From a virus: a stretch of 64,000 nucleotides of DNA. The notes beneath the pieces are model-generated. The model did not search any database. It had not been told where the DNA came from and saw nothing but the letters and a program-made list of their open reading frames with translations. The position numbers and the translations under genes were made by a program. The stretch spans positions 1-64,000 of the IMG/VR virus record IMGVR_UViG_3300027743_000027, one strand, 5' to 3'. Below, one piece after another: positions 4,617-19,599 of this stretch. How positions within the stretch are numbered: the stretch's first letter is position 1; every line of letters starts with the position of its first letter.

Positions 4617-5249
4617 GTGATCGCGACCTTCGATGAGGTGCGCCCGGGGCAGCGCGGCCTGCGCGAGTACCTCGACAACCAGCCCGTCGATGGGCCGCTG
4701 AACGACACCGAGAGCTACTACACGGGCTCACAGCGGCGCTGGCTCGCAACCTGGCTGCGACGGTGTGCCAACACGCTGCTGCTGAACAACTGGACGGTCC
4801 GCCTGTGGCACGAGCCGCCCAGAGGCGATGCGCACGCCAACGTCACGGCGACGGAGGGCCGCGTGTTCGCCAGCTTCCGCTTCGAAAACGAGATCTTCAC
4901 GCAGGACATTGCCGACGCCAAGAACCACATGGCGCACGAGCTACTGCACGTCATGCTCGAGCAGGCGACACAGATGGTCGAGTACGACCTGAAGGGCCTG
5001 CTGGGCGACCAGGCGCTGGCCATCTTCCAGTCGACCTACAGGCGCCAGATGGAGTTCGCCGTCGACCACCTGGCGAGCGTCATCGAGGCCGCGCTGCCCG
5101 ACCCGCCGTGGGCGGGCCTGCCGCTCAACGAGCGGACCGCCAAGGCCAACACGACCGCCCAGGAGCGCTGGCGCGGCGAGCAGCCGCAGGCCGACGTGGT
5201 CACCTACCTGGCTGTCCCGGATGCCACCAACCCCGCAACCGAGCAATAG
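4617..5249 (+). CDS. HExxH putative zinc metallopeptidase
   Basis: 210 residues from GTG 4617. The motif HELLH at residues 107-111 sits in a helix after a beta-rich segment, the arrangement of zincin-type metallopeptidases. A candidate third ligand is Glu146 or His151 in the next helix (MEFAVDHLA). The protein lies between portal and the MuF polyprotein and its end overlaps that gene by 29 bases. It might process head proteins or act on the host, but small HExxH proteins of phages are mostly uncharacterised. The motif is seen; the activity is inferred. Confidence 0.7.
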   Translation: MIATFDEVRPGQRGLREYLDNQPVDGPLNDTESYYTGSQRRWLATWLRRCANTLLLNNWTVRLWHEPPRGDAHANVTATEGRVFASFRFENEIFTQDIADAKNHMAHELLHVMLEQATQMVEYDLKGLLGDQALAIFQSTYRRQMEFAVDHLASVIEAALPDPPWAGLPLNERTAKANTTAQERWRGEQPQADVVTYLAVPDATNPATEQ

Positions 5250-8200
5250 CCAGATCTACCGCCAGAGCCTGGTCGACGCTCGCGAGGCGTGGGCCAAGCA
5301 GTCGGGCCTGACGCAGGCGCAAGTCAAAGGCGCCTACCAGCAGGCCGCCACCTCACTCGGCTCGCGGGTCGCGGCCGCGCCGCCGACGGCACCCTCGACG
5401 GCCTGGAACCTGAGCCAGCTACAGCAGGTCGTGCAGGACTACGGCAACACGCTCGACCAGCGCGTGCTGGATGCCATGCACGCGGGCATCCAGGCCAGCT
5501 TCCACGATGCCGCCGACAGCGTGCTGAAGACCAAGACCAGCGACGCCTACGGCAGCGTGTTCGGCCCCGAGGCCGTCGACGCGCACGTCCGCGACGTCAA
5601 CCAGCGCGCCGCCGCGAGCTACATCACGCGCACGGGCAAGGATGGCCTGAAGCTCAGCGACCGCATCTGGAAGACCAACGCGCAGTGGCGCCAGGCGACC
5701 CAGCAGGTGGTCCAGACGGCAGTCATCGCGGGCCAGCCGCCCGTGCAGGTGGCCAGGCAGATCGAGCAGTACCTGCAGCCCGGCGTGAACGTGCCCTACA
5801 AGGCCGCGACGGCCAAGCGGCTGAAGGTGCCCAAGGACACCTCGATGCCCGCCATGCGCGTGGCGCGGACCGAGATGCAGAACAGCTTCCACGAGGGCAC
5901 CATCTCGAGCCACTCGAGCATGCCGAGCTACCTGGGCATCCGCTGGCACATCGCCTCTGCGCTGGGCCACGAGACCGACATCTGCGACACCTACGCCGCG
6001 CAGGGCTTCTTCCCGAAGGGCACCGAGCCGCTCAAGCCGCACCCGCACTGCTTCTGCACCGCCGTGCCCGTGCACAAGGACGCCGACGAGGTGCTCGACG
6101 ACCTCGACGAGTGGCTGGCCAAGCCCTCGAGCCACCCGGAACTCGAGGCCTACTACGCGCAGATCAAGCCGCTGCTCGACGTCGAGATCGCGTCGGTCGC
6201 AGGCGCCAGCGGCGGGCCACTCCTGGGCGGCCACGCCAAGGGCGACAAGGTGCTGATCGACGTCAAAGGCACCGAGGTCATCGCCACCGTCGTGGGCGAG
6301 CACGCCACCAAGGGCGTGCTGACGCTCCTCATCGACCCGGGCCAGGGCCTGGCGTCGATCAAGGTCTGGCGCGCCCCGAGCAAGGTCAAGGCCTACGGCG
6401 GGCCGCCGACGCCTGCCATTCCGCTCACGCCCGTGGCGCCGAACCCGCTGGTCTCGCCGTTCGGCGGCCTGGACGTCGGCCACGTGGTCTACGCGACCGC
6501 GGGGCAGCACCTGGGCAAGGTCGGCATCGTCCAGGCCACCAAGGCCGCCAACGGCACGCTGCAGGTCTTCTGGGAGGACGGCACGAGCAACTGGGTGGTC
6601 CACCAGAACCTCCAGGCAACGCCTGCGCCGACGATCACGCCGACCGTTGGCCAGCAGGTCAAGCTGAACATGCCCGAGCAGGCGCTGCTGCACACCCAGC
6701 TTGGCACGATCACGCACATCGACTCGAACGATCTGGTCACGGTCGAGGTAACGATCAACAACCAGGCCTTCGACTTCACGCTCGAGCCGACCAGCGTGTG
6801 GAAGCTCGAGGCGCCCGCGGCGGTCATCGCCGTGCCGCCACCCGTGCCGCCGCACGGCCTGCCAGCGGGCTACCAGACCTCACCCGCCGAGCCCGTGATG
6901 GGCGGCAAGGTGCTGGTCACCGCGCAGGGCCCGAAGTTCGGCCAGGCCGGCACGGTCGACTTCGTCGGCGGCGTGGGCGTCCACATCAAGTTCGACCAGG
7001 GCGGCGGCGACATGCTGCTCAAGGCGAATATCACCGTCATCGAGCCCGTGACGGCGCCGCCAACGCCGAGTGCGCCCGGGGCGCTGCCGACCATCGGCTA
7101 CTTCGATGCACCTGGCGCGCCCAACCACGGCAAGCCCGTGGCCTCGCTCGACGCCGCATCGGGCGCCATGCAGTACACCGACGGCACCTGGGCCTACGGC
7201 ATCGACCCGGCCTGGGTGGTGCCGACGCCACCGCCGGGCAGCCTGCACGCGCCGACGACGCCACCCGCGGCGCCCGCGCCTGTCCAGGCCGCGACACCAG
7301 CGTGGCAACCCAAGGTGGGCGACGCCGTCACGATCAACGACATCTTCAACCCACACCACGGCGCGCAGGGCGTCCTCGACCTCGAGACGCCGAGCTTCTG
7401 GGTGATCAAGCTGCCGACCACGACGGTGGTCATGAGCAAGCCCGACCTGCTGACCAAGACGCTGCCGCAGGGCGCGCCAGCCGCGCCGACGCAGACGCAG
7501 ACGGTCGCCGCGCCCGCGCAGCAGGTGCCGCAACTCGGCAACATCAACCACCTCTACACGGGCCACTTCGTTACCATCCACGACCCTGGCGGGGCACTGC
7601 ACGGCCAGTCCTTCGAACTGGCCGAGGACGTCGACCTGATCTCGGCGCAGGGCGACATCCCGCTGTGGGAAGACGCCACGCACCAGGGCGTGATCTACCT
7701 GCCCAAGCAGAAGGCCTACGACCCGACGCTGCCATTAATCGACCTGCAGGCGCTGGCTCGCCCCGAGGCGACGCTGCAGGATCTGATCGTGGGCGACCAG
7801 GCGGTCGACACACACACGGGCGACACGGTCTACCTGGGCGAGGTGCCGCACTGGTCGCTGAGTGGCGGGCTCATCGTCTACAAGTCCAAGGCCGACTTCG
7901 ACGCGGGCATCAATCCGATCACGCTGCCCGTGGCGGACCTCGACCCGGTGCCGGGCATGCTGATCCACGCCGAGACGCCGCTGCACCAGCTAGCCAAGGG
8001 CGACAAGGCCATCGTCAACGACCCGACCTCGAACTGGCATGGCAAAGAGGTCTACCTCGAGATGGGCGCGCTGGGCATGTACGGCACGAGCACCATCCCC
8101 GTCACCGATGCCAGCGGCGCCATGACGACGCTCAAGCTGAACCAACTGACGACGACCTGGCAGATGACGGCGACCTCGAGCCCGGGTCACCTGGCGCCGC

Positions 8201-11200
8201 CGCCCGCGTCCGCGACAGGCGGGCCAGTCAAGGATCTGCACGCGCACACGGCGGGCGATCTGGTGATGATCAAGCCGGGCATCGGCATCCAAGACGGCGG
8301 CACGGTGGTCGAACTGGTCGACTCGCTGGTCGGCCTGCAGCCGCACGATCTCGTCACCGTCAAGTACGCCAACGGCACCACGAACACCCTCGAGGTCAGC
8401 GAACTGAAGGCGCTGCCGCCCAGCGGCGCGACCATCGGCCAGCAGTTCGAGTCAAAGGACGTCAAGACCCTCCAGGCAGGCGACAAGGTCATCGTCAAGA
8501 GCGGCCACGCCGCGGGCCAGGAGATGACCGTCACCCAGCCCTACGACCCGGCCAGCGACCTGCTCGAGGTCAAGGACGCCAGCGGCGGGCTCGAGGACTT
8601 CTACCCCGACGAGCTTCTGGTCCACCCGGACTCGCAACTGGGCCTCAAGGCCGCACCGCTGCCCAAGAAGCTCGAGGACATGCAGGCGGGCGACACGGTC
8701 ATCGTCAACTCACCGGGCGATCCCTACCACGGCCAGCCCGTGACGCTGATGCACGACCTGTACGGCTACAAGGCGACCGACTTCATCGACCTGACGACGG
8801 CCACGGGCGGCTACCTGAGCTACTACCTGCAGAACCTGGCCGTGCCGCGCCCCGCACCACCACCTGTGGTCCAGGCCGCCACTGCCGCGCCTGTCGGCAG
8901 CGTCGATGTGACACAGAAGGGCACCAAGGTCACCACCGACTACAAGGGCGCCACGGTCACGGGCACCGTCCAGTCCTACAACGCGGGCAAAAAGGTGCTG
9001 GTGATCAAACCAGATGGGCCTGTGCCTGGTTTGACAGCCAAGACGTTCACCAAGAGCCCTGGCAAAGTCCAGGCGCTGGTCACGCCCGCGCCCGCGGCCG
9101 CCGCGCCGCCCGCACCGCCGCCGCCTGTGCAGACGCAGACGCCGCCCGCGGCCGCGCTGCACCCCATCGACCATCTGGTGGCGGGCGATGCCATCGTCAT
9201 CAACTCGCCGGGCAGCATCTACCACGGCCAGACGGGCAAGCTGATGAACCCGAGCGTGGCGCAGACCACCAGCGGCTTCCTCGTGGTCGAGATCGGCGGC
9301 TCGAGCAAGACCTTCCTGAAGGCCGACCTGGCCTCACCCACGCCACCACCACCGCCATCGCCGCAGCAGGTCGCGCTGGATGCCATGACGCAGGGCGCGA
9401 CGGTCATCATCAACGCGCCCGGCAGCGTCAACCACGGCTACGAGGCGCTGCTGCTCGAGGCGACGATGCCGACCAATGCGGCCGACATGGTCAACCTGCA
9501 CATGCTGGCGGGGCCGCAAGCGGGCCAGGACGTCGTCTACTTCAAGACGACGCTGGTCGCGCCCGGGACACCCATCGCGCCAACCGCGCCTGTGCCAGCG
9601 CCGCCCGCGGCGGCTGCGGGCCCGGTCATGACCAAGACGACCAAGGGCGCCATCGTCACCACCGAGTACCAGGGCACGCCCGTGACGGCGATGGTCAAGA
9701 GCTTCAACGCGGGCAAGAACGTGGTCATGCTGAAGCCTGTCACGCCCGGCCTGCCAGGTGTACCAGCACAGTTTCAGAAGTCGCCCAGCAAGGTCACGCT
9801 GGTGCCGCAGCCAGGCGTCAGCGCACCTGCCACACCCGCGGTGCCTGTGGTCACCACGCCGCCGCCAGTGGCCGCCCCGGCGCCTGCCGCGACGCCGACG
9901 CTGCCACCTGGCCTGACGGCCACGCAAGGCAAGCCCGCGACGTCGCCGTCGACCATGCAGGCGACGCATCAGGTGGTCGGCGGCGGCCACACCAAGGCGA
10001 TCTACAAGGACGCCACCGACAACTCGACGTGGATGTTCAAGCCCGATCCGAACGCGGCGCGAGCCGAGCAGGCGGGCTACAACGTCCAGGCGCTGCTCGG
10101 GATCGCCACACCCGAGACGCACGTCATCACCCACAACGGCCAGGTCGGCAGCTTCCAGAAGTTCCACCCGGGCATCAAGGGCGAGGTCGCGCTGCACGCG
10201 GTCAAGAGCCTGACCGACGCCCAGCGCGCCCAGCTACAGCAGCATCAGGTCGTTGACTGGCTGATCAGCCAGCACGACTCCAACGAGGGCGCGATGCTGA
10301 TCGGCGCCAACGACGAGATCCTGGCGGTCGACAAGGGCCAGGCCTTCAAGTTCCTGCTGACACCCGGCGAGAAGCTGCACTGGACCTACAAGCCGAACCC
10401 CAACCAACTGGTCTACCAGCCGCTCTTCGAGGGCTACATCGGCAACAAGTTCGCGCTGCAGCGGAGTGCCATCGAGCCGATCCTGCAGAAGATCGAGGCG
10501 CTCGACGATCAGGTCTTCAAGGACGCCATCAAGCCCTACGTCGACCACGCCGTGCAGCAGGGCCTGGCGCCGAACGAAGCGGCCATCTACGACAAGCTGC
10601 TCAAGCGCAAGCACTCGATCCGCGCCGACTTCGACAAGCTGTACGACCAGGCCGACCAGCAAGCGGGCCGCTCGAGCGGGCCCTCGCTCAGGCAGGCGGC
10701 ACCCGCGGTGCCCGCGCCGCCTGTGGTCGCCGCCACCTCGAGCGCCGTCTCGACCAATCAGGTCACGCCCATCACGCCTGTGCTGGCGACCAACGTCCAG
10801 CGCGCTGGCACACACGGCAAGGCCGTGCTGGTTGGCGGCCGCGACATCGAAAACGGCACCGTCCACGTCTTCCAGATGCCCGTCACGGGCGACGGCACCA
10901 AGCTGGTCATCTCGGCCAAGGTCCGCGCAGGTGCCGAGGCCAAGCTGAAGCAGCACCTCGAGGGCCTGCCTGCCAACAACGCCGCGCCGCCACCCTCGCC
11001 CACCTCCACGGCGCCACCCGCGGACCCGGAGTGGACCAACGTCCTGACGGTGCTGAAGCACGTCGGCTCGCACACCAAGCCCACGGGCGACCAGCAGGTG
11101 ACGGGCTCGAAGGTGGCCGAGCTAATCATCCTGGCCAACAACCTCAAGACCAACAACCTGGGCTGGACGGCGCAGAAGTCGGGCTACTACGCCGACCTGC

Positions 11201-12591
11201 TCGAGAAGATGACGGGGCACAGCGTCGTCGAACTGGCGGCCAAGACACCCGATGTCCTGGCGGCCGAGCTACAGACGCTGTGGATCGGCAACACGGCACT
11301 GCACGCGGCCGCCTTCGGGCCCTACGTCGCACCACCGCCACCGCCACCTGTGGCGTCCGCTGCGCCACCGCCGCCACCGCCGCCACCGACAGGCAAGTTC
11401 AAGGCGCGCTCCGAGTCACCCAGCTATCTGGTGCGACGGCTGAGCAACGGCGACCTGATCACCGACGGCGTGACGCGGACCGACTCATCCTTCCACGGCA
11501 TCCTGGGGCGGCACGAGTGGTTCATCGACGACCTGGGCGGTGGCATGTCGGCGCAGTACATGCCGCACTACGGCAAGTCGCTGTCGCCCTACGAGTCGAG
11601 CGCTCGAGCGCAGAACAACCCGTACAGCCGCATGGGCCGCCTCGAGGTGACGCTCGACAACTGGCAGGGCACGCACACCGAGATCGAGGCGGCGCTGCAG
11701 AAGCTGAACGAACTGGGCCTCGAGGTCGCGCCCGCCTCGCCGCAGGATGTCGAACTGCTGTACCTGGCCAATCAGGTCCACGCCATGGGCCTCGAGTCCT
11801 CGAGCAAGTACACCTCGCTGCAGGCCAGCATCAACGACACCACGCCCGTCAGCGAGCAGATCAGTAAGCACCAGAAGTTCCTGAGCGACCAGCTTGGCAC
11901 CGACGTCACCAAGCTGCCGACTTACGACCCGGTGGCCAGGTTCGACAACGGCTACCGCATCGTGGGCACCAACGGCCACGAGATCGTCCCCGAGGCAGGC
12001 AAGCCCTACTTCGAGCGCCTCGACATCAGCGCCCAGGATCTCGCGCAGAAGCTGCCCAACCGCGTCCTGACCCACGACTCGACCGCAGGCACCGAGAACT
12101 TCCTGAAGGTGCTGCTCGACGGCAACGGCGCGATGGCCAACACCGAGGAGCGCGTCCGCCAGGCGCTCTTCGACCCGAGCCAGGGCATGTCGAGCGTCAC
12201 CGACATGTACACGGGCGGCGCCAGCTACTTCTTCACGCGCCTGGCGCGGACGACGCACGGCGAGGGCAGCCGCGGGCCGTTCTGGTTCGACATCGACCTG
12301 ATGCGACGCACTGATATGCTCGCCTACAAAACGGACACCTACGGGCGGTCCGATCCGAACACCAAGAAGGGGCGCTACACCGACCTCGACGACTGGCGGA
12401 CCAAGCAGCACGTCGCAGGCAACAACGAGGTGGTCATCAAGAACGGCTTCCCGCTGCTCGACTACCTCGTGCGCCTGTCGGCCAAGAACGCCACCGAGCG
12501 GAATCGGTTCATCAAGTACTTCAAGGATCGCGGCATCAGCCAGATTCGCGGCAAGCCCATCGAGGACATCGTGCAGGTCGGCTTCCCATGA
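5221..12591 (+). CDS. Giant MuF-type minor head polyprotein with effector-like domains
   Basis: 2456 residues. Residues about 60-285 match the MuF/SPP1 gp7 head morphogenesis domain, with the RVARTEMQNSFHEG helix near 214 and the closing HPHCFC motif at 274-279. About 15 KOW-like SH3 modules of the form GDxVxI...HGxxG follow from about 340 to 1530, separated by Pro/Ala linkers. Residues about 1580-1770 resemble PI3/4-kinase or HipA-like folds: K1607 in WMFKP, E1616, DWLISQHD ending at D1686 and DKGQAF with D1704; the usual metal-binding Asn appears replaced. The C-terminus (about 2280-2456) has H2285, a GMSS...TGGASY segment and NNE with E2403, like ADP-ribosyltransferases. MuF proteins fused to toxins are known; this combination suggests a capsid-borne effector. 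Confidence 0.85.
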   Translation: MPPTPQPSNSQIYRQSLVDAREAWAKQSGLTQAQVKGAYQQAATSLGSRVAAAPPTAPSTAWNLSQLQQVVQDYGNTLDQRVLDAMHAGIQASFHDAADSVLKTKTSDAYGSVFGPEAVDAHVRDVNQRAAASYITRTGKDGLKLSDRIWKTNAQWRQATQQVVQTAVIAGQPPVQVARQIEQYLQPGVNVPYKAATAKRLKVPKDTSMPAMRVARTEMQNSFHEGTISSHSSMPSYLGIRWHIASALGHETDICDTYAAQGFFPKGTEPLKPHPHCFCTAVPVHKDADEVLDDLDEWLAKPSSHPELEAYYAQIKPLLDVEIASVAGASGGPLLGGHAKGDKVLIDVKGTEVIATVVGEHATKGVLTLLIDPGQGLASIKVWRAPSKVKAYGGPPTPAIPLTPVAPNPLVSPFGGLDVGHVVYATAGQHLGKVGIVQATKAANGTLQVFWEDGTSNWVVHQNLQATPAPTITPTVGQQVKLNMPEQALLHTQLGTITHIDSNDLVTVEVTINNQAFDFTLEPTSVWKLEAPAAVIAVPPPVPPHGLPAGYQTSPAEPVMGGKVLVTAQGPKFGQAGTVDFVGGVGVHIKFDQGGGDMLLKANITVIEPVTAPPTPSAPGALPTIGYFDAPGAPNHGKPVASLDAASGAMQYTDGTWAYGIDPAWVVPTPPPGSLHAPTTPPAAPAPVQAATPAWQPKVGDAVTINDIFNPHHGAQGVLDLETPSFWVIKLPTTTVVMSKPDLLTKTLPQGAPAAPTQTQTVAAPAQQVPQLGNINHLYTGHFVTIHDPGGALHGQSFELAEDVDLISAQGDIPLWEDATHQGVIYLPKQKAYDPTLPLIDLQALARPEATLQDLIVGDQAVDTHTGDTVYLGEVPHWSLSGGLIVYKSKADFDAGINPITLPVADLDPVPGMLIHAETPLHQLAKGDKAIVNDPTSNWHGKEVYLEMGALGMYGTSTIPVTDASGAMTTLKLNQLTTTWQMTATSSPGHLAPPPASATGGPVKDLHAHTAGDLVMIKPGIGIQDGGTVVELVDSLVGLQPHDLVTVKYANGTTNTLEVSELKALPPSGATIGQQFESKDVKTLQAGDKVIVKSGHAAGQEMTVTQPYDPASDLLEVKDASGGLEDFYPDELLVHPDSQLGLKAAPLPKKLEDMQAGDTVIVNSPGDPYHGQPVTLMHDLYGYKATDFIDLTTATGGYLSYYLQNLAVPRPAPPPVVQAATAAPVGSVDVTQKGTKVTTDYKGATVTGTVQSYNAGKKVLVIKPDGPVPGLTAKTFTKSPGKVQALVTPAPAAAAPPAPPPPVQTQTPPAAALHPIDHLVAGDAIVINSPGSIYHGQTGKLMNPSVAQTTSGFLVVEIGGSSKTFLKADLASPTPPPPPSPQQVALDAMTQGATVIINAPGSVNHGYEALLLEATMPTNAADMVNLHMLAGPQAGQDVVYFKTTLVAPGTPIAPTAPVPAPPAAAAGPVMTKTTKGAIVTTEYQGTPVTAMVKSFNAGKNVVMLKPVTPGLPGVPAQFQKSPSKVTLVPQPGVSAPATPAVPVVTTPPPVAAPAPAATPTLPPGLTATQGKPATSPSTMQATHQVVGGGHTKAIYKDATDNSTWMFKPDPNAARAEQAGYNVQALLGIATPETHVITHNGQVGSFQKFHPGIKGEVALHAVKSLTDAQRAQLQQHQVVDWLISQHDSNEGAMLIGANDEILAVDKGQAFKFLLTPGEKLHWTYKPNPNQLVYQPLFEGYIGNKFALQRSAIEPILQKIEALDDQVFKDAIKPYVDHAVQQGLAPNEAAIYDKLLKRKHSIRADFDKLYDQADQQAGRSSGPSLRQAAPAVPAPPVVAATSSAVSTNQVTPITPVLATNVQRAGTHGKAVLVGGRDIENGTVHVFQMPVTGDGTKLVISAKVRAGAEAKLKQHLEGLPANNAAPPPSPTSTAPPADPEWTNVLTVLKHVGSHTKPTGDQQVTGSKVAELIILANNLKTNNLGWTAQKSGYYADLLEKMTGHSVVELAAKTPDVLAAELQTLWIGNTALHAAAFGPYVAPPPPPPVASAAPPPPPPPPTGKFKARSESPSYLVRRLSNGDLITDGVTRTDSSFHGILGRHEWFIDDLGGGMSAQYMPHYGKSLSPYESSARAQNNPYSRMGRLEVTLDNWQGTHTEIEAALQKLNELGLEVAPASPQDVELLYLANQVHAMGLESSSKYTSLQASINDTTPVSEQISKHQKFLSDQLGTDVTKLPTYDPVARFDNGYRIVGTNGHEIVPEAGKPYFERLDISAQDLAQKLPNRVLTHDSTAGTENFLKVLLDGNGAMANTEERVRQALFDPSQGMSSVTDMYTGGASYFFTRLARTTHGEGSRGPFWFDIDLMRRTDMLAYKTDTYGRSDPNTKKGRYTDLDDWRTKQHVAGNNEVVIKNGFPLLDYLVRLSAKNATERNRFIKYFKDRGISQIRGKPIEDIVQVGFP

Positions 12592-16448: not shown

Positions 16449-18086
16449 GTGCTGCTGCGCATCAACCGCACGCGGGTTTCGACACGGCCCTGGTCTGAGG
16501 CCGAGGCGCTCGCGCTGCGTGACCAACTGGCCGACGCCGACGAGGCCATCGCGCACGAGGTCTACGCCGCCCGGCTGGCCGCAGGCACGCACTGGGGCGC
16601 GCACCACGAGATCTCGAGCGACGGTGAGGTCATCCTCAACCGCCAGGGCCTGCAGGCCGCCACGGCCGCGCTGGGCGACCTGAGCGAGGCCGAGCGCAGC
16701 GTCGCCATCCGCCACCTGAGCAAGCACTACGTCGAGCACGACCTGCCGCTGCCCGACGGCTTTGTGGCTCGAGCGGGTGAGATGCACGTCCTGGCAGGCG
16801 CGGTGGGCGAGATGGCGCCGAGCGACATCCCCCTCTCGAGCGCCTTCACCGAGGCCGAGCGTCAGCACCTGCTGAAGGGCGACGACGACCCGATGGAGGT
16901 GGTCATCGAGGTCGCGCCAGGCAAGAGCAGCCGGGGCTGGAACTACACGCCCGCGGCGCTGCAGAAGATGGTCACGCACGTCCAGACCAAGACGCTGGCG
17001 GGCATCAAGGGCCACCAGCGCGACGAGGACGTCGCCAGCCAGTTCGTCGACCCGGCCACGCACTGGATCGGCGCCCTGTGGCAGAACGACAAGGCCTACT
17101 TCCGAGGCGTTATCGACAAGACCGCCCCGGATCTGAAGCGCTGGATTCGAGCCAAGCGCATTACGCAGCCCAGCATCTTCACGCGGCCCGTGCTGTCACG
17201 CGTCGGCGGTGAGACGCAGGTGGTCGACCTCGAGCCGCTGGGGATCGACTGGGCGCCACTGGATCGAGCCGGGATGCCCTCATCCAGAGTGGTCGCCTGG
17301 GGCGAGATGGATGCCATCGGCGGCGAGCCGTTCGAAAGTCGGGCGCCGCTCGACGACGACCAGATCACAACTACAGGGAGCGGTCATATGACAACCGTCC
17401 GAGAAGCGCTCGACGCGCTGCGTGAACACGGCGCACCCGCCAGCCAGGTGCTGCAGGCGATGAACTGGCGCGCCAACGATGTGCTGCCCGGGCTGCTGGC
17501 CACTGACCGTCGTGGCGTGGCCGAGGCCCTCGACCAGGCGACCCTGCAGCACGTGGCCGCGGGCGAGATGGCCAAGGCGCACCGCCCGCAGGACTTGCTG
17601 GCGGCCATGAACCTCGACCTGGCCACCGTGGCGCCGCTGATCGACGCGGCGCAGTGGCAGCGGCTGCAGGCGGCCGAGACGGCCGTGGGCGAGATGCGCA
17701 GCGCGCTGGGCCTGGCCGAGACGGCCGATGCGGCGGCGGTCCGCACGCGGGTGACCGACCTCCAGACGGCCGTCGCCACGACCTCGCAGCAGGCGCTGCG
17801 CTCGAGTGTCGAAGCGATTGTCGCCCGTGGCGAGATGGCGGTGCCCACGGCGGTCCGCCCGCTGGTCACCAGCACGGCGCTGCTCGAGCTACAGCCAGGC
17901 GCCGACGAGACCGCGATCAAGAGCGCCATCACCAAGGCCAAGGGCGTGCCCGAGATCAAGCCGATCCTCGAGGCCAGCCTGGGCAGCGCGCATATCCGCC
18001 CGACCGCGACCGGGTCCGCGGGTGAGATGCACAACGGCGCCAGCCGCGAGCCCGTGGGCTTGCCGACGCGCCGACGGTCGATCTGA
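16449..18086 (+). CDS. Prohead protease-scaffold fusion with repeated GEM motifs
   Basis: 545 residues from GTG 16449. Residues 1-110 are a helical pro-region. Residues about 123-284 look like a capsid maturation serine protease: GHQ with His189, WIGALW, ITQPSIF with Ser242 and the closing LEPLGIDWAPLDRAGMPSS segment, in the order seen in phage prohead proteases. The rest (290-545) is Ala/Leu-rich helix typical of internal scaffold. Gly-Glu-Met occurs at 110, 120, 285, 372, 414, 461 and 525, bracketing the protease and cutting the scaffold into pieces; the capsid protein has one at 42. I read these as self-processing sites. The catalytic residues are inferred by pattern. Confidence 0.78.
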   Translation: MLLRINRTRVSTRPWSEAEALALRDQLADADEAIAHEVYAARLAAGTHWGAHHEISSDGEVILNRQGLQAATAALGDLSEAERSVAIRHLSKHYVEHDLPLPDGFVARAGEMHVLAGAVGEMAPSDIPLSSAFTEAERQHLLKGDDDPMEVVIEVAPGKSSRGWNYTPAALQKMVTHVQTKTLAGIKGHQRDEDVASQFVDPATHWIGALWQNDKAYFRGVIDKTAPDLKRWIRAKRITQPSIFTRPVLSRVGGETQVVDLEPLGIDWAPLDRAGMPSSRVVAWGEMDAIGGEPFESRAPLDDDQITTTGSGHMTTVREALDALREHGAPASQVLQAMNWRANDVLPGLLATDRRGVAEALDQATLQHVAAGEMAKAHRPQDLLAAMNLDLATVAPLIDAAQWQRLQAAETAVGEMRSALGLAETADAAAVRTRVTDLQTAVATTSQQALRSSVEAIVARGEMAVPTAVRPLVTSTALLELQPGADETAIKSAITKAKGVPEIKPILEASLGSAHIRPTATGSAGEMHNGASREPVGLPTRRRSI

Positions 18087-18115
18087 GCTAGCCAGGAGAG
18101 GAGGACCAGCTACCA

Positions 18116-18490
18116 ATGGCAAACACCAATGGCCACAAGATGGCCGATGGCCTGAGCGTTGACGTGACCGTGCCGAGCGGCACCGTCGTCGCGCAGGGGG
18201 AGTTCGTATACATCGACGGTTTCTTCGGCCTGGCCGAGTTCGACGACAAGCCCGTCTCGACCGGGGCGGCGGTCATCGCCATCAACATCGAGCAGGGTCA
18301 GTACGACACGGATCAGATCACGACGGCTGAGGCCTACGCGGTGGGCGACGTCGTCAACTTCAACATCACGACCAAGCTGTTCACCAAGGCGGCCGTCTCG
18401 GGCACGATCCTCCCGGTGGGCCGCATCACCATCGCCAAGAACGCGGATAACGTCATCGGCTTCTTGATGCTGCCGCAGCGGCTGGCCTGA
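18116..18490 (+). CDS. Capsid decoration protein (DUF2190-like)
   Basis: 124 residues after a GGAGAGGAGG ribosome-binding site. It is almost all beta and Gly-rich: an N-terminal VTVPSGTVVAQGEFVYIDG segment, a central repeat of short strands and a closing VGRITIAKNADNVIGFLML. This is the pattern of DUF2190-type capsid cement proteins, which sit on the outside of the capsid between protease and major capsid genes, as here. Confidence 0.75.
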   Translation: MANTNGHKMADGLSVDVTVPSGTVVAQGEFVYIDGFFGLAEFDDKPVSTGAAVIAINIEQGQYDTDQITTAEAYAVGDVVNFNITTKLFTKAAVSGTILPVGRITIAKNADNVIGFLMLPQRLA

Positions 18491-18504
18491 GGGAGGAGTA
18501 GACG

Positions 18505-19599
18505 ATGGCTATCCGAATCATTGACGCCCCAACGCTGCGCGCTGAACGGCGTCAGGGCGAGCGCACCTACACGGCCCAGGCGACCATCTGGGATCAGCCC
18601 TTCGAGGTGCCGATCCACATCGCCGCGGGCGAGATGGACACCTACGACCTCAACCGCCCGGTGCGCGAGTACCTGGCCACGCTCAACGCCCGCCCGGTGG
18701 CTGGTGAGATCATCGCCACGCCGCCCAACCTGGCGCAGTTCGTCACCAAGACGGTCGTCGACCTGAACCTGGGCCGCGAGCAGGTGCCGCTGCTGTACCC
18801 GGCGGTCTACACGCGGACGATCACCGACGCCAACCTGACCGAGAACGTCGATGTCGGCGCGATCATGGCGCGAGCGTCGGTCGTCTTCCTGCAGCACATG
18901 GAAGGCGGCGAGGTCCGCTTCGGCACGCGCACGCTCACGCCACGCCAGACGGTGCCGCTGGTCACCTACGCCGCGGGCTTCGAGTACACCGAGGATCTGG
19001 TCGAGTACGACAAGACGTGGGAGATCACGCAACTCAATGAGGCCCTGGGGCGGGCCTACAACGCGCTGCTGAACCACATCCACCTCTACCCGATCACCAG
19101 CTACACCTACGCGGCCAAGAACCAGACGCCCGCGGACGCGACGGCCAACACCACCTTCCGCGAGAAGATGCGCGCCACGCTCAAGGCGGGCCTGATCCAC
19201 GCAGGCAGCGACACGGGCACCGACACGGGCCTGGGCCGCTCGCCCAACGTCCTGCTGGCGCACTCGAGCCGCCGCTGGGACATCGAGGAGGCGCTGCAGC
19301 GCTTCGTGGTCAGCGGCACCGAGTACCCGGCACTGGCAGGCATCGACACGCTGGTCTTCTACGACGGCTACAGCATCACCGTCGGCGCCCGGAAGTACGT
19401 CTATCCCGGCGTGGCGACCAACAAAGCCTACCTCGTGGACACCAGCACCTACCTCATCGAACTGGTCAAGCACGACCTGCGGACCGACGCGGGCGTGGGC
19501 GATCTCAGCCGCCTCATCCAGCAGCAGATCGTGTCTCGCGCCCGCCGAGGCGTCTTCATCTCGCCGCCCAACTGCGTCGAGGAAGTCACGCTGCCGTAA
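18505..19599 (+). CDS. Major capsid protein
   Basis: 364 residues after a GGGAGGAG ribosome-binding site. It lies in the canonical position after protease/scaffold and decoration genes. It contains a long extended segment followed by alternating helices and strands, with a conserved-looking C-terminal RRGVFISPPNCVEEV. The first 43 residues end in the AAGEM motif shared with the protease/scaffold gene, so I predict removal of an N-terminal propeptide during maturation. An HK97-type fold is likely but is not demonstrated by a motif. Confidence 0.8.
   Translation: MAIRIIDAPTLRAERRQGERTYTAQATIWDQPFEVPIHIAAGEMDTYDLNRPVREYLATLNARPVAGEIIATPPNLAQFVTKTVVDLNLGREQVPLLYPAVYTRTITDANLTENVDVGAIMARASVVFLQHMEGGEVRFGTRTLTPRQTVPLVTYAAGFEYTEDLVEYDKTWEITQLNEALGRAYNALLNHIHLYPITSYTYAAKNQTPADATANTTFREKMRATLKAGLIHAGSDTGTDTGLGRSPNVLLAHSSRRWDIEEALQRFVVSGTEYPALAGIDTLVFYDGYSITVGARKYVYPGVATNKAYLVDTSTYLIELVKHDLRTDAGVGDLSRLIQQQIVSRARRGVFISPPNCVEEVTLP

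Follow-up and report, generated by a model that had tools for sequence, protein, structure and literature searches.

Why does one tripeptide, Gly-Glu-Met (GEM), recur seven times in a single viral protein and appear once more near the start of the major capsid protein encoded downstream? This question is raised by the window, the 64,000 nucleotides analysed here from the 70159-base IMG/VR virus record IMGVR_UViG_3300027743_000027, in which a 545-residue protein of the PHROG 3219 family carries the repeats. The original prediction, made from positions 16449-18636 (it ended at 18636 because the capsid GEM codons are 18628-18636), read the motif as the cleavage code of a self-processing protease and scaffold and of its capsid substrate. 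Here it is proposed, with a probability of about 0.88, that the protein unites a scaffold with a prohead serine protease specific for Glu, which cuts after Gly-Glu, frees itself, shreds the scaffold and trims the capsid protein. GEM almost certainly marks protease cut sites in head maturation, and the cleavage-code reading is supported with one correction, the capsid cut site.

Recurrence of GEM in the window and in the protein family

Translation of the open reading frame (ORF) gave GEM at residues 110, 120, 285, 372, 414, 461 and 525 of the 545-residue protein, and the capsid ORF (18505-19599) gave it at residue 42, exactly as had been noted. The composition of the protein leads to an expectation of 0.066 copies, in line with the earlier estimate of well under one; none of 2000 shuffles had more than two copies, and the next most frequent tripeptide has three. 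Over the whole window, a six-frame count found 12 GEM, eight of them within the protease/scaffold and capsid genes. The features of the 545-residue protein are as follows.

16449..18086 (+): protease-scaffold fusion gene, 545 residues, GTG start; PHROG 3219 family, from ORF translation and homologues
16449..16781 (+): N-terminal domain, residues 1-111 (the separate domain itself 1-105, 16449-16764); cuts at sites 1 and 2 are predicted to remove it
16776..16784 (+): GEM site 1, residues 110-112; Glu in 36/41 relatives
16806..16814 (+): GEM site 2, residues 120-122, giving the predicted mature protease N-terminus Met122; Glu in 37/42, next residue Met, Ile, Val or Leu in 42/42
16815..17300 (+): protease domain, residues 123-284; Foldseek matches to T4 gp21 (5jbl) and viral prohead proteases, invariant residues
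17013-17015, 17172-17174 and 17247-17249 (+): predicted triad His189, Ser242 and Asp267; 42/42 invariance
17301..17309 (+): GEM site 3, residues 285-287, where the protease is predicted to release itself at its C-terminal edge; Gly-Glu in 42/42, next residue Met 32, Ile 7, Gln 2, Leu 1
17307..18083 (+): helical scaffold part, residues 287-545, split by sites 4-7; from the structure model
17562..17570 (+): GEM site 4, residues 372-374, clade-specific; among representatives, alignment column shared by the window protein and L002 only
17688..17696 (+): GEM site 5, residues 414-416; Glu in 25/42
17829..17837 (+): GEM site 6, residues 461-463; Glu in 36/42, GEM in about half
18021..18029 (+): GEM site 7, residues 525-527; column not conserved

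Sequence searches and phage records provided 189 loci, with 160 complete protease/scaffold proteins and 171 capsid proteins, which were then clustered into 42 protease/scaffold representatives at no more than 70% identity and 60 capsid representatives at less than 90% identity. GEM occurs 217 times in the 42 representatives, against 4.47 expected (4.2 with the start Met dropped), counts that are not independent events since these proteins share ancestry. Loss of GEM in homologues that keep the protease had been named in advance as the outcome that would speak against the code; repeated GEM, at least two copies, was found in 42/42. As many as 215 of the 217 copies lie outside the protease domain and two inside. 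No tripeptide is as over-represented in the family as GEM, and GEI comes second outside the protease domain (77 against 6.7 expected; 84 against 8.6 overall). The permuted motifs are not raised in the 42 representatives (GME 3, EGM 0 and MEG 0, against 4.2 each), and the 374 other protein clusters of the same loci show no GEM excess (9 against 9.4 expected). An apparent avoidance of GEM in other virion genes, 12 against 26.2 in raw counts, was discarded, as it was gone after clustering at 60% identity. Other ORFs of the loci contain GEM once at most, and no further substrates are proposed.

The Gly and Glu codons of the motif vary as elsewhere in the genes, with eight DNA words in use, and this variation across relatives indicates that selection acts on the protein. 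The flanks are informative only at positions -3 (Val, Ala, Ile) and -2 (Val, Ala, Ile, Thr, Ser), counted from Glu. In the window protein the residues before GEM, described earlier as usually Ala, Val or Arg, are mostly Val, Ala, Arg, Ser and Trp, and the family rule is a hydrophobic residue at -3 and Val, Ala, Ile, Thr or Ser at -2. Gly-Glu is strict at the conserved sites, where Met follows most often and Ile less so (16 and 3.8 times background, respectively). This graded tolerance, together with the hydrophobic -3 and -2 positions, is typical of protease subsites. In the divergent relative L078, the capsid protein has GEL where others have GEM, and three GEL stand beside two GEM in its protease/scaffold, hinting that the preference after the cut may have shifted there. 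Covariation of the after-cut residue between the protease and the capsid protein of the same phage is weak (correlation 0.20) and is not claimed.

The positions of the sites also change. The site at alignment column 337 is present in 30 representatives, and the window protein reads LQAMNW there; the clade of the window has lost 337 and gained 373. As the need for sites is conserved while their positions move, this is the pattern expected of a cleavage code in a disposable scaffold, and the turnover shows a repeated origin of sites despite the shared ancestry.

The putative protease and its predicted cuts

A ColabFold model built with 15 family members had a mean predicted local distance difference test (pLDDT) score of 64.5, with residues 123-284 mostly at 75-90 except for a loop around 187-200. 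In a Foldseek search with this model, the best PDB matches were three chains of T4 gp21 (5jbl; probability 1.00, E 1.1e-3 to 4.5e-3), followed mainly by herpesvirus proteases, while the search of viral models returned 136 matches at E of 0.001 or lower (down to 1e-13), many of them named prohead protease. The protease identity, a guess in the original prediction, gains from this fold match and from the invariant residues. His189 and Ser242, which had been named as catalytic, are invariant in 42/42 representatives, as is Asp267, which we infer from its spacing to be the third member of the triad: the Ser242-Asp267 distance of 25 equals that of SPN3US gp245 (S153, D178; PMC5694885). In the pairwise hhalign alignment with gp21, His189 falls on His85 and Ser242 on Ser140, with a weak score (E 0.063).

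The fold, the invariant Ser, His and acidic residue and the gene neighbourhood support a putative prohead protease of the herpesvirus-protease fold. The code of T4 gp21 is (L/I)-x-E; that motif was not found here, nor was significant profile similarity to the gp21 family proper. Unlike (L/I)-x-E, the repeated motif always has Gly directly before Glu, with Val, Ala, Ile, Thr or Ser before the Gly. Matches to PHROG head maturation proteases were obtained in two relatives, in the coiled scaffold and not in the catalytic domain, and were not used as evidence.

On either side of the protease domain the model predicts distinct parts. The N-terminal domain has a pLDDT of about 80 over residues 1-100 and is predicted to be well folded; it carries a conserved HWGPHHE...LNR...HYR and is missing in L003, L009 and the relatives from cultured phages. 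The scaffold part is modelled with helices at 317-345, 354-376, 400-419, 428-459, 467-478, 487-498 and 504-511, with mixed confidence.

We infer that the 545-residue protein is the enzyme, that cleavage occurs after Glu and that it would take the following order. The protease-scaffold would assemble with the capsid protein inside the prohead and, once switched on, would cut after the Glu of (hydrophobic)-(V/A/I/T/S)-Gly-Glu↓(Met, less often Ile), where the arrow marks the cut. This would free a catalytic core of 165 residues (122-286, 18.3 kDa), and the scaffold would be chopped into pieces of 42-87 residues, able to leave the head. The N-terminal propeptide of the capsid protein would also be removed, probably with the final cut after Glu68 and with Glu43 as an additional site. 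The predicted products of the 545-residue protein are 1-111, 112-121, 122-286, 287-373, 374-415, 416-462, 463-526 and 527-545.

The two Gly-Glu sites of the capsid protein

The capsid protein has a second Gly-Glu downstream of its GEM, and the features of this gene are the following.

18505..19599 (+): major capsid protein, 364 residues; PF25209, phrog_3116, phiCD508 gp49 (9gay), E 9e-61
18628..18636 (+): capsid GE site A, residues 42-44, GEM; Gly-Glu in 60/60, next residue Met 56, Leu 2, Ile 1, Val 1
18703..18711 (+): capsid GE site B, residues 67-69, GEI, favoured final maturation cut; Gly-Glu in 60/60, next residue Met 49, Leu 9, Ile 2

Within capsid residues 1-68, only G42, E43, G67, E68 and Pro52 are conserved in at least 95% of the 60 representatives. 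Between the two sites, the window protein has a 13-residue insertion (residues 54-66, positions 18664-18702) which was found in only a few of the representatives.

The original prediction had placed a 43-residue propeptide here, with the mature protein starting at Met44. The Gly-Glu on which it was based stood in all representatives, 56 of them with Met next; the propeptide length is less likely to be right, as the invariant second site and the lengths modelled for phiCD508 favour another start. The capsid protein gp49 of phiCD508 (9gay/9gb0) is encoded with 345 residues, and its four chains have 287, 286, 280 and 274 modelled residues, so that every chain is short by about 58 or more. The capsid sequence of phiCD27 (345 residues) was used in place of that of phiCD508, with which it agrees in the residues shown around both sites; on this sequence, the predicted remainder is 302 residues if the cut falls after E43 and 290 if it falls after E55, the second Gly-Glu. 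The model of the window capsid protein was poor (mean pLDDT 43.6), and its use was confined to finding the solved homologue and that protein's modelled length.

Because site B is as invariant as site A and the modelled length of 287 is nearer 290 than 302, a mature N-terminus at Ile69 is favoured. To judge from the modelled length, the second Gly-Glu is the more likely final cut, with E43 perhaps an extra one, and the predicted mature product comprises residues 69-364 (32.7 kDa). The same code with a mature capsid protein starting at residue 44 is unlikely, even though site A is present in 60/60 and carries the best motif (KIVNGEM), given that equal invariance and that fit of length. In the sequence shared with phiCD27, the N-terminal peptide of gp49 would be MMTFSSTSNLK after a cut at E55 or METLELNKPLGEMMTF... 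after a cut at E43. The capsid protease gp47 and the scaffold gp46 were reported in phiCD508 virions by mass spectrometry (PMC11948020). A literature search for N-terminal sequencing of phiCD27 or its relatives found nothing usable.

Several points weigh against cleavage by this protein. The residues left unmodelled in cryo-electron microscopy can mean disorder and not removal, the modelled residues could not be assigned to chain positions, and the phiCD508 proteins are described as modelled full length or close to it, with processing unmentioned (PMC11948020). The literature search found no direct cleavage data for any family member. For the enzyme, a profile search of PDB sequences gave no protease and no gp21, and the homology is therefore visible by structure and not by sequence; together with the weak gp21 profile comparison, this means that the assignment as a protease depends on conservation and on a model of moderate confidence. 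The Foldseek template modelling scores to gp21 are also below 0.5, and GEM sites 372 and 414 fall inside predicted helices of low confidence, where cutting would need local unfolding.

GEM could instead act in docking or assembly, as a peptide bound by one shared partner (capsid, portal or protease) and never cut, a role for which its presence in both the scaffold and the capsid N-terminus, the interaction of scaffolds with capsid delta regions, and the sites within predicted helices would be suitable. A docking motif is improbable, however, with GEM almost absent from the protease domain and yet an invariant Gly-Glu exactly at the edge of that domain, with a strict Glu followed by a looser hydrophobic residue, and with sites that are lost and gained in the window clade; the residues missing in mature phiCD508 also fit cutting better. 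Much less probable still is that the Met of GEM serves as an internal translation start giving separate scaffold products, as for lambda Nu3 or T4 gp21'. Internal starts are known in prohead protease genes (T4 gene 21) and no residue is commoner in the motif than Met, but conservation of Gly and Glu would then be needless, GEI is also systematic whereas Ile codons are unusual as starts, the motif is invariant inside the capsid gene too, and a properly spaced ribosome-binding site is not visible in the printed contexts upstream of the GEM sites. Coincidence, a DNA-level repeat or a repeat-protein duplication can practically be dismissed. In their favour, the guanine-cytosine content of the window makes the word GG[CT]GAGATG frequent there, but the codons vary freely across relatives, the flanks share nothing beyond -3 and -2, and the 217 copies far exceed expectation.

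Known systems and the gene neighbourhood

The strength of such a signal was compared with T4 as a control, using its [IL]xE code: the scaffold gp22 has 16 copies against 5.7 expected and the 65-residue gp23 propeptide has four, the last at E65, while the tail tube protein gp19 shows no [IL]xE excess. The GEM signal is far stronger. Similarly to the proposed enzyme, those of T4, phiKZ, 201phi2-1 and SPN3US cleave behind the Glu of a short motif (PMC5694885). The T4 protease breaks the core down to peptides, whose exit is presumably through the shell, and takes 65 residues off gp23, its substrates likewise being the scaffold and the capsid N-terminus (PMC9958956). T4 gp21, the best PDB fold match, in which the His and Ser align residue by residue, differs from the window protein in being separate from the main scaffold gp22, in having a code other than x-G-E↓M, and in lacking significant sequence similarity.

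The SPN3US enzyme trims off its own propeptide at the C-terminus and cleaves several A-x-E sites within propeptides (PMC10052503, PMC5694885), with a preference of gp245 for Val at P4 and Ala at P3 (PMC10052503). The phiKZ gp175 and SPN3US gp245 enzymes (MEROPS S80) share with the family the cut after Glu, Val or Ala at P4-P3, self-cleavage, several propeptide sites and the Ser-Asp spacing. They differ in their motif, A-x-E or S-x-E with the next residue in SPN3US preferably Ser, in the lack of a long fused scaffold on the protease and in having many more substrates.

The capsid protein gp49 of phiCD508 (9gay) is a clear homologue of that of the window; gp47 of this phage was named capsid protease, with cleavage, motif and propeptide left undescribed (PMC11948020). 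From the gene order of the related phiCD27, gp47 is probably a homologue of the window protease/scaffold. HK97 gp4 and herpesvirus assemblin belong to the same fold class as the window protease, and no sequence similarity between them and it was detected. Assemblin is also fused to a scaffold and frees itself, and the cleavage specificities of both enzymes differ from GE↓M.

It is fairly probable that PHROG 3219 represents a separate family of prohead proteases, widespread among phages of Bacillota and uncultured phages, with a Gly-Glu↓Met/Ile code of its own that, in contrast to the Glu-x codes of T4 and phiKZ, depends also on the residue following the cut. The code would be carried by the scaffold fused to the enzyme and by two invariant capsid sites, and could therefore be read from sequence alone. 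The kind of system and the enzyme type are known; for the family, its Gly-Glu↓Met code and the capsid propeptide with two sites, no description appears to exist in the literature searched. A function is thereby proposed for two PHROGs entries of unknown function (3219 and phrog_3116), and exact cut sites, fragment sizes and mature N-termini are predicted for a large phage group, which includes a Clostridioides difficile phage with a solved capsid structure whose maturation was not discussed. This would be a third Glu code, with a constrained after-cut residue, beside the T4 and phiKZ types. Reading a maturation code from motif excess in scaffold and propeptide could also be used on other unannotated phage heads.

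The PHROG 3219 profile matches residues 110-290 of the 545-residue protein (E 1.9e-69) and all 17 members scanned, while Pfam and NCBIfam scans of the protein gave no family match. The capsid ORF matches Pfam Phage_capsid_4 (1.7e-7) and phrog_3116 (2e-101) in addition to 9gay. Profile scans placed a portal-like protein (phrog_64) and a MuF-type head morphogenesis protein upstream of the 545-residue protein, and a cement protein between the protease/scaffold and capsid genes, the neighbourhood that the original prediction had implied.

18116..18490 (+): head decoration (cement) protein, GEM absent; PF09956, phrog_122

The order MuF, protease/scaffold, decoration and capsid is common to the window, Clostridioides phage phiCD27, Bacillus phages BalMu-1 and BSP7 and Weizmannia phage Youna2. 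In the records of these four phages the protease/scaffold gene is annotated as hypothetical or, in BSP7, as a transcriptional regulator. Public records label genes of the family "putative transcriptional regulator" (BSP7, L024 3476-4621) or "repressor protein cI" (matches in BSTP5), which are apparently misannotations.

The MuF-type domain of the window (phrog_1657, residues 13-316) is at the N-terminus of a 2456-residue protein (5221-12591, +), whose next approximately 2000 residues have many Pro/Ala-rich linkers and repeated SH3/KOW-like segments, the latter from weak Pfam matches. This protein has zero GEM, and therefore no cut is predicted in it. It is unusually long for a MuF protein and is possibly an injected effector.

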